Part shown: piece after piece, positions 23,329 to 23,787 of the stretch
Numbering within the stretch: the stretch's first letter is position 1
Layout of the letters: each line of letters begins with the position of its first letter
Origin: Halomonas sp. HL-93
GTDB lineage: Bacteria > Pseudomonadota > Gammaproteobacteria > Pseudomonadales > Halomonadaceae
DNA length: 64,000 nucleotides
NCBI RefSeq assembly: GCF_900086985.1
Contig: NZ_LT593974.1
Location: 4,030,001 to 4,094,000, forward strand
Direction: 5' to 3'
Notes under the pieces: generated by a model
Told to the model about the DNA's origin: nothing
The model's input: the letters and a program-made list of their open reading frames with translations, nothing else
Databases searched by the model: none
Program-made: the position numbers and the translations under genes

Positions 23329-23585
23329 CCCTGCGCCGTGAGTGGATATTCCCGTTACATGTGTCATTACGACTCACAACGTGAGTATCCATTTGTCACG
23401 CTTCGCTCATGCAGTGATAGGAAGCATAAAAAAACAACTCTTTGTTATCATTACATAATAAATAGCTTAGTGGGTAGCTGGCACAGAGTCTGCTCTTAAA
23501 TAAATACGACAGTCGCCTTGTATTGTAAAATGCAGAAAACTGTTGATACTTTTCTTTACATAGTAGGGAAAAGTAACTACGCTTA
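23329..23585. other. Gene-free part of the phoR to sRNA gap
   Basis: This AT-richer stretch follows phoR. A short stem (ACTCAC/GTGAGT) lies near its start. Open frames on the minus strand here are short, have no family features and no ribosome-binding site, so I do not call them genes. A possible promoter for the RNA that follows is TTGTAA (23523-23528) and GATACT (23545-23550) with 16-bp spacing; this is weak. Confidence 0.4.
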
Positions 23586-23787
23586 GATAGTGAACCGATG
23601 CGAGGCAAGGACGTCTTGTGTCAGCAGGGATGATTGAAGATTCACAGGATGAATCTAAAAGGCGATCACACTGCCAGTCAGGGTAACGTCCACGGTTGGA
23701 ATCCCGCAAAAGGATTGGAAGCTGGTTAGCAACATCGCCTAAAATGATCACTGTCGAAGACCCCGCCACGGCGGGGTCTTGTTTTTT
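23586..23787 (+). ncRNA. Candidate CsrB/RsmZ-type regulatory RNA
   Basis: No protein gene is supported here, but the + strand has the design of a CsrA/RsmA-sequestering RNA. Six GGA motifs lie within 111 bases (at 23609, 23628, 23647, 23698, 23712 and 23717). Three of them fit the CANGGANG-type binding site: CAAGGACGT, CAGGGATGA and ACAGGATGA, spaced exactly 19 bases apart. The third sits in the loop of a perfect 6-bp hairpin, GATTCACAGGATGAATC (23639-23655). A longer-range pairing AGGCGAT/ATCGCCT closes the second half. It ends at a strong intrinsic terminator. The 3' end is firm; the 5' end could lie anywhere from about 23555 to 23600. Confidence 0.6.
23757..23787 (+). terminator. Strong Rho-independent terminator of the candidate sRNA
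   Basis: AAGACCCCGC (23757-23766) pairs with GCGGGGTCTT (23771-23780) around a 4-base loop, followed by G and six T (23782-23787). The T-run is only on the + strand side, so it ends rightward transcription. Confidence 0.92.

Follow-up and report, generated by a model that had tools for sequence, protein, structure and literature searches.

A real, conserved RNA lies in the gap between phoR and a CysZ-like gene of Halomonas sp. HL-93, and it is likely to be of the Csr/Rsm type. (The window below is the whole stretch of 64,000 nucleotides analyzed; coordinates without a prefix are positions in it.) This candidate CsrA-decoy-like RNA would occupy 23590..23787 of the + strand, a call based on conservation of its core and on the fold energy (z -2.67). 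The explanation that we prefer, and hold as a whole to be likely, is that it is a Csr/Rsm decoy RNA at the 3' end of a cassette having a sigma54/enhancer switch, the open reading frame (ORF) of the cassette being gone in the clade of the window. The GGA motifs, several of them in hairpin loops, would bind CsrA dimers and so free the mRNA targets of CsrA. We infer transcription, CsrA binding, use of sigma54 and sequestration from the DNA, and sequestration of CsrA would be the main role. The surroundings of the gene suggest an on-switch differing in kind from that usual for Csr/Rsm RNAs. If this is true, sigma54 control of a Csr-type RNA through an enhancer would give a second signal a further way to reset CsrA.

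Conservation, fold and GGA hairpins

On the + strand of 23586-23787 GGA begins at 23609, 23628, 23647, 23698, 23712 and 23717, which reproduces the count in the preliminary description of six motifs within 111 bases, the first three spaced exactly 19 bases apart; the - strand of the same segment has two. By itself this density is only moderately unusual: at least six GGA are found in 0.125% of the 111-base stretches on the + strand of the window and in 0.028% of those on the - strand. Four GGA of the window RNA lie in hairpin loops; dinucleotide shuffles average 0.90, and 10 of 1000 reached four, and 4 of 200 shuffles reached the fold score of 23590-23787 (z = -2.67). The GGA-loop hairpin described earlier as perfect, GATTCACAGGATGAATC, is so, and spans 23638-23656 with one more pair. 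The strong intrinsic terminator claimed was also found (23757..23787, + strand); 23757-23780 form a 10-bp stem with 7 GC followed by a T run, and two-sided changes occur in 7 of 8 stem pairs.

In relatives, for which the preliminary description had proposed an alignment of the same gap, the RNA proved to be conserved with covarying stems. Among 82 genomes of the genus a DNA search with the RNA matched 52 and a covariance model of the core (terminator excluded) 69, stricter filters being applied in the covariance-model searches of this set and of a 250-genome set. The location is fixed. In 68 of the 69 RNA-bearing genomes the RNA is preceded by phoR in the same orientation, with 221-866 bases between the phoR match and the RNA, and the sole exception (G067) was a genome whose examined stretch contained no phoR. 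The CysZ-like gene is convergent and downstream of the RNA in all 54 genomes whose stretch extends far enough. Thirteen genomes of the genus gave no RNA match and five of these were inspected: in four the ends of the phoR and cysZ matches are just 16-92 bases apart, and in the fifth no phoR match adjoins cysZ.

A family-wide draw gave core-model matches in 64 of 250 genomes under the stricter filters, all within one of 24 genera, and among named genomes the exact core pattern occurred in 38 stretches, each of which bears the title Halomonas, Vreelandella or Halovibrio. The loci of 22 genomes of other genera had no RNA match, and before cysZ had neither the sigma54 pattern nor the enhancer core discussed below. 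Searches with the RNA in phage and plasmid collections and with the core pattern in viral contigs gave no match. Hence, as far as the searches can see, the RNA appears to be confined to one genus.

For structural analysis the alignment was reduced from 80 rows to 65 by removal of nhmmer hits of fewer than 120 model positions (one fragment in L014) and of duplicate sequences; 64 of the 65 aligned copies are distinct. In these copies 97.3% of the cells of the core stem, inner stems and terminator pair. Two-sided changes are found in 13 of the 23 pairs, and none of 500 shuffles reached the covariation score. Structures slid by 1-3 columns gave pairing in only 31-52% of cells, a comparison that favors the unslid version because the structure was predicted from the alignment on which it was tested. 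The only moderately unusual GGA density could be taken to mean that the motifs are a chance cluster in an intergenic gap devoid of any RNA, a reading to which we give almost no credence: it is refuted by the covariation, and is excluded because the RNA is conserved and fixed in location as well, with a terminator at its end.

The preliminary description had put forward loss of the GGA hairpins in relatives as grounds for rejecting its proposal. The first and third hairpins passed this test and the second did not, its motif being kept and its hairpin being at the control level. The first hairpin, H1 (23597..23622, + strand), has a 10-bp stem and the loop AAGGAC in the fold from 23590. Its GGA is present in 47 of the 65 copies, 44 of which form a hairpin of at least 4 pairs (control fraction 0.22 in shuffled flanks) with 29 different stems. 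That GGA stays while the stems change around it argues for the preferred explanation, although the lack of the H1 GGA in the other 18 copies, mostly second copies, weakens it. The H1 of relatives is often CAAGGAUGU, which we take to fit the CsrA consensus RUACARGGAUGU. The second GGA, H2 (23628..23630, + strand), is conserved in 64 of 65 copies with a hairpin of at least 4 pairs in 18 of the 64 (control fraction 0.24), and this unsupported hairpin also counts against the preferred explanation. The third, H3 (23638..23656, + strand), has its GGA in the loop of AGATTCACAGGATGAATCT; the motif is present in 64 of 65 copies, and all 64 form a hairpin of at least 4 pairs (control fraction 0.21).

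Downstream of H3 is a core domain (23660..23740, + strand), in which GTCAGGG...CCACGGTTGG...CCCGCA marks a stem that covaries and AAAAGGATTGGAAG, single-stranded, holds the GGA at 23712 and 23717; all 65 copies have two GGA in the 3' strand of the core. Over the 65 copies the mean number of GGA is 6.15 on the sense strand versus 2.23 on the reverse strand, and the mean number in hairpin loops is 2.54 versus 0.84 in shuffles. This sense-strand excess and loop placement, together with the covarying stems of a conserved RNA 3' of phoR, are grounds for the preferred explanation. The excess and the loop placement also argue, as do the stems that change around kept GGA loops, against a structured or base-pairing RNA that works through its invariant core, mainly with a partner other than CsrA, and carries its GGA motifs only incidentally. 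We consider that alternative quite improbable. It draws on the 28 invariant columns of the alignment, 24 of which are in the core (GTNAGGG included) and exceed what a decoy needs. The core is indeed unusually strict (GTNAGGG...CCANGG(T)TGG...CCCGCA), and conservation of primary sequence beyond that need, a point against the preferred explanation, hints that it may have a further role.

The display of H1 and H3 depends on where the RNA begins. The fold from 23590 displays both, whereas the minimum-energy fold from 23505 pairs both stretches otherwise, a loss that weakens the preferred explanation with its sigma54 start. The consensus fold of the alignment omits H1 and H3, the registers of which vary between copy types.

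Comparison with known Csr/Rsm RNAs

RsmY, RsmZ and RsmX, like CsrB and CsrC, carry repeated GGA in hairpin loops and an intrinsic terminator. The phoR-side RNA resembles them in its GGA hairpin loops and terminator, and its genome has candidate partners: one csrA match and a regulator of the UvrY/SirA/GacA family that adjoins uvrC and exceeds the curated cut-off, both of which speak for the preferred explanation. The class feature of several GGA, some as ANGGA in hairpin loops, was found except that H2 lacks support as a hairpin. The RNA differs from these RNAs in falling below the RsmY, RsmZ and CsrB cut-offs, in having no GacA box above chance and in having sigma54-type signals. With the H1 and H3 hairpins conserved, the Csr/Rsm-type reading of the preliminary description stands as the best one, and the RNA is a candidate for CsrA binding.

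The comparison with Rfam models that the preliminary description had suggested did not bear out membership in a described family, and the sub-cut-off scores weaken the preferred explanation. Nothing in the whole window reached gathering cut-offs. RsmY (RF00195; gathering score 57 bits) came up in a permissive scan with 24.4 bits for the + strand and with 27.1 for the - strand, both matches taking in the terminator hairpin common to the two strands. PrrB_RsmZ (RF00166, gathering 44 bits) matched none of 19 genomes including that of the window at E up to 0.001, and CsrB (RF00018, gathering 71 bits) had no match in the genome of the window at E up to 1. The RsmY model gave 21 matches in that genome, all below cut-off. 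Since several of these are to the terminator part only and 10 of 14 control genomes match too, we gave the sub-cut-off RsmY score no weight. Of five such matches read by eye, three (L097-L099) had 1-2 GGA and were rejected.

One sub-cut-off RsmY match, at G000:C1:1351199-1351309 (L095), revealed a second GGA-rich RNA with conserved relatives. This canonical-looking Csr/Rsm RNA (G000:C1:1351162-1351315, about 2163-2316 of L163) has 8 GGA, the hairpins CAAGCAGGACGCTTG and CACGAACAGGACGTTCGTG and a terminator. A search of 201 family genomes gave relatives in 62, spread over 11 of 24 genera; a number of these matches are short or cover the terminator only. A profile search of 30 loci gave 46 rows: 42 near-full-length copies, 1 partial copy and 3 reverse-strand terminator matches. 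The near-full-length copies have 6-10 GGA on the sense strand and 0-1 on the reverse strand and the partial copy has 8. The two RNAs of the genome are alike in their GGA hairpin loops and terminators, but the 1.351 Mb RNA has relatives in other genera and no + strand sigma54-pattern match upstream in L163. We think that it probably serves the family as its main Csr RNA, to which the RNA of the window is an addition. The family thus has two testable candidates for CsrA-binding small RNAs. Several genomes carry two close-set copies of the 1.351 Mb RNA.

Csr/Rsm-type RNAs are described as presenting ANGGA in short hairpins in the available part of a 2020 review, which gives Halomonas anticariensis as having GacS-GacA and CsrA and its small RNA partner as unknown (PMC7366521). 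A search of the open-licence literature on Halomonas and Vreelandella small RNAs and on RpoN/Rsm found, among the matches listed, no title or abstract opening that names the phoR-side RNA. In P. stutzeri the available part of a study of the Rpo/Gac/Rsm network names RpoN sites at nifLA and pslA and not at rsmY or rsmZ (PMC8249394). The closest precedent found, judged by its description and without sequence comparison, is RsmW of Pseudomonas aeruginosa. In the source as far as available, RsmW is GGA-rich (7 GGA, 3 in outer loops), is reported to bind RsmA in vitro, is believed to arise by processing of the 3' UTR that follows a small hypothetical ORF, is not activated by GacA and exists in addition to RsmY and RsmZ (PMC4950607). 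It resembles the phoR-side RNA in being GGA-rich and at the 3' end of a small ORF. The differences are that the available part of the RsmW report gives no sigma54 site, whereas the phoR-side RNA belongs to a repeated cassette and in some clades occurs without the ORF.

Upstream signals and the small-protein cassette

A GacA box is usual for such RNAs and not universal, RsmW and RsmV being described as Gac-independent in the portions of the sources available. We surveyed the sequences upstream of 90 copies from 69 genomes, leaving out any hit that spanned fewer than 110 positions or did not share the strand of the best hit. The GacA box pattern TGTAAG-N6-CTTACA had best matches of 3-5 mismatches in the 90 copies (mean 4.28 versus 4.09 in shuffles), which is no better than chance. 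With spacings of 5-7, the matches listed included 2-mismatch, spacing-5 boxes in L009, L010, L016, L017 and L021, and 3 mismatches in the window. The proposed link to phosphate holds for position, beside phoR in nearly all RNA-bearing genomes, and fails for the one Pho-box pattern tried: its best match on the + strand of 23329-23600 had 4 mismatches of 14, and a box is unsupported.

The upstream signals point instead to sigma54 with an enhancer-binding protein. A sigma54-type -24/-12 element, TGGCACAGAGTCTGCT, lies at 23479..23494 (+ strand), and given the consensus and start distance that we assume for sigma54, transcription of the window RNA would be expected to start near 23505. The strict pattern occurs upstream of 81 of the 90 copies, where mononucleotide shuffles average 0.64 and the reverse strand has 2; in the 64-kb window alone its 3 matches versus 1.04 expected leave the chance probability not low. 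Further upstream, ATGTGTCATTACGACTCACA contains a putative enhancer (23359..23378, + strand), the imperfect palindrome TGTGYC-N5-GRCACA, with a conserved CATGTG that starts 121 bases before the sigma54 site. CATGTG is found within 160 bases before the site in all 81 copies and at 117-121 bases in 76 of them, and the palindrome has a mean of 1.46 mismatches versus 4.56 in shuffles, both enhancer motif and strict pattern having been fixed after the sequences were seen. The features of a sigma54-dependent promoter (-24 GG, -12 GC, fixed spacing and a distal enhancer) are thus present at the level of sequence, and conservation of the site and of CATGTG adds to the case for the preferred explanation. 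A motif scan of the 64-kb window found neither rpoN nor an enhancer-binding protein gene.

In most relatives a small, acidic, secreted-looking protein is encoded between the sigma54 site and the RNA: such an ORF precedes 73 of the 90 copies, ending within 250 bases upstream. Most copies thus have the order enhancer, sigma54 promoter, protein, GGA RNA and terminator, a cassette that would be turned on through sigma54 by an enhancer-binding protein bound to the TGTGYC palindrome. We consider sigma54 control of the cassette likely. The related proteins fall by eye into types A, B and C, of which A and B precede the RNA; signal peptides were also assigned by eye, and neither Pfam nor NCBIfam gave a match at E up to 1 to the three sequences tested. 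In the phoR-cysZ gap of some relatives (such as L038, L045 and L058) up to three tandem cassettes of types A, B and C are seen, and in the loci read the RNA profile matched after types A and B and had no match after C. Two sub-cut-off RsmY matches lie near such cassettes in L019 and L031.

In the other 17 copies the RNA lacks the ORF, and 11 of these retain the sigma54 site, the distance between site and RNA being 32-145 bases. The clade of the window (8 genomes) is among them: no such ORF was found, and the enhancer, RNA and sigma54 site are kept, the RNA following the site at a distance of 103-106 bases. A nearby site without the ORF is also seen in G020, in G045 and in the first copy of G076. 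We read the ORF as lost, rather than never present, in the clade of the window, where the sigma54 promoter would drive the RNA alone, and regard sigma54 control of the window RNA as probable. If this is true, clades having RNA and promoter without the protein gene show a 3'-end RNA turning into a free-standing gene. Persistence of the RNA without the ORF supports the preferred explanation and is an objection to the RNA being chiefly a cis-acting 3'-UTR element, in which CsrA binding would protect or process the mRNA of the small protein. Such a role seems improbable to us, even given the 73 copies with a homologous ORF close upstream and the GGA motifs that mRNA leaders also bear (seen by eye in a reading of 22 of the 81 leaders).

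Nine of the 90 copies have no strict sigma54 site, which weakens the preferred explanation. Six of these also lack the ORF and yet keep the RNA (G001 and G047 in both copies, G074 and G076 in the second copy), so sigma54 may not be indispensable. Nearer the RNA is a sigma70-like element, TTTACA-N17-TACGCT (23555..23583, + strand; loose pattern), from which a start near 23590 would be expected. The RNA would be about 198 nt long from the start predicted for this element and about 283 nt from 23505 with sigma54. Of the 90 copies 46 have the element, placed between -31 and -29 (mononucleotide shuffles: mean 0.43, largest 2), and a general promoter scan found no + strand site at 23555-23583. In the preferred explanation it would perhaps be a basal or alternative start. 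Alternatively, it could be the promoter of a Csr/Rsm RNA, the sigma54 site serving, or having served, only the protein gene. This is a doubtful reading, and its probability overlaps that of the preferred explanation, the CsrA part being common to both. The frequency of the element, its presence also where the strict sigma54 site is missing (second copies of G001 and G047) and the display of H1 and H3 only in the fold from its start all favor the reading. It is hard to reconcile with absence of the element from 44 copies, including the first copy in each of the 21 two-copy genomes, and with retention of sigma54 site and enhancer in the clade of the window, where no homologous ORF remains. An inverted repeat, TACTTTTCTTTAC/GTAGGGAAAAGTA (23547-23575), spans the -35 of the element and forms a 13-bp stem in the predicted fold; a similar repeat is visible across the clade, and it is possibly a 5' hairpin or an operator.

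A second cassette locus

The genome of the window has three related small proteins at C1:591156-593047 and none at phoR. The locus (L162 1657-3620 = G000:C1:591156-593119) encodes three small acidic secreted-looking proteins with two sigma54/enhancer promoters. Two of the proteins are preceded by the sigma54 pattern with CATGTG 119 and 118 bases further up, and this recurrence of the enhancer/sigma54 spacing is in favor of the preferred explanation. After the second protein there are three GGA hairpins, one of them AGATTCAAGGATGAATCT, plus a terminator. The first and third proteins have no GGA hairpin of at least 5 pairs between stop codon and terminator, and the first also has no sigma54 pattern before it, both of which weaken the preferred explanation. 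We advance tentatively, as a possibility, that a sigma54/enhancer regulon of at least two loci couples small secreted acidic proteins to 3' CsrA-decoy RNAs as a Csr input separate from Gac, and that in the lineage of the window the RNA outlived its protein gene, the invariant core of the RNA having a second function. A sub-cut-off RsmY match (L101) falls inside this second locus, and a 5' leader hairpin, AGGTAGGACGACCT, is also seen there.
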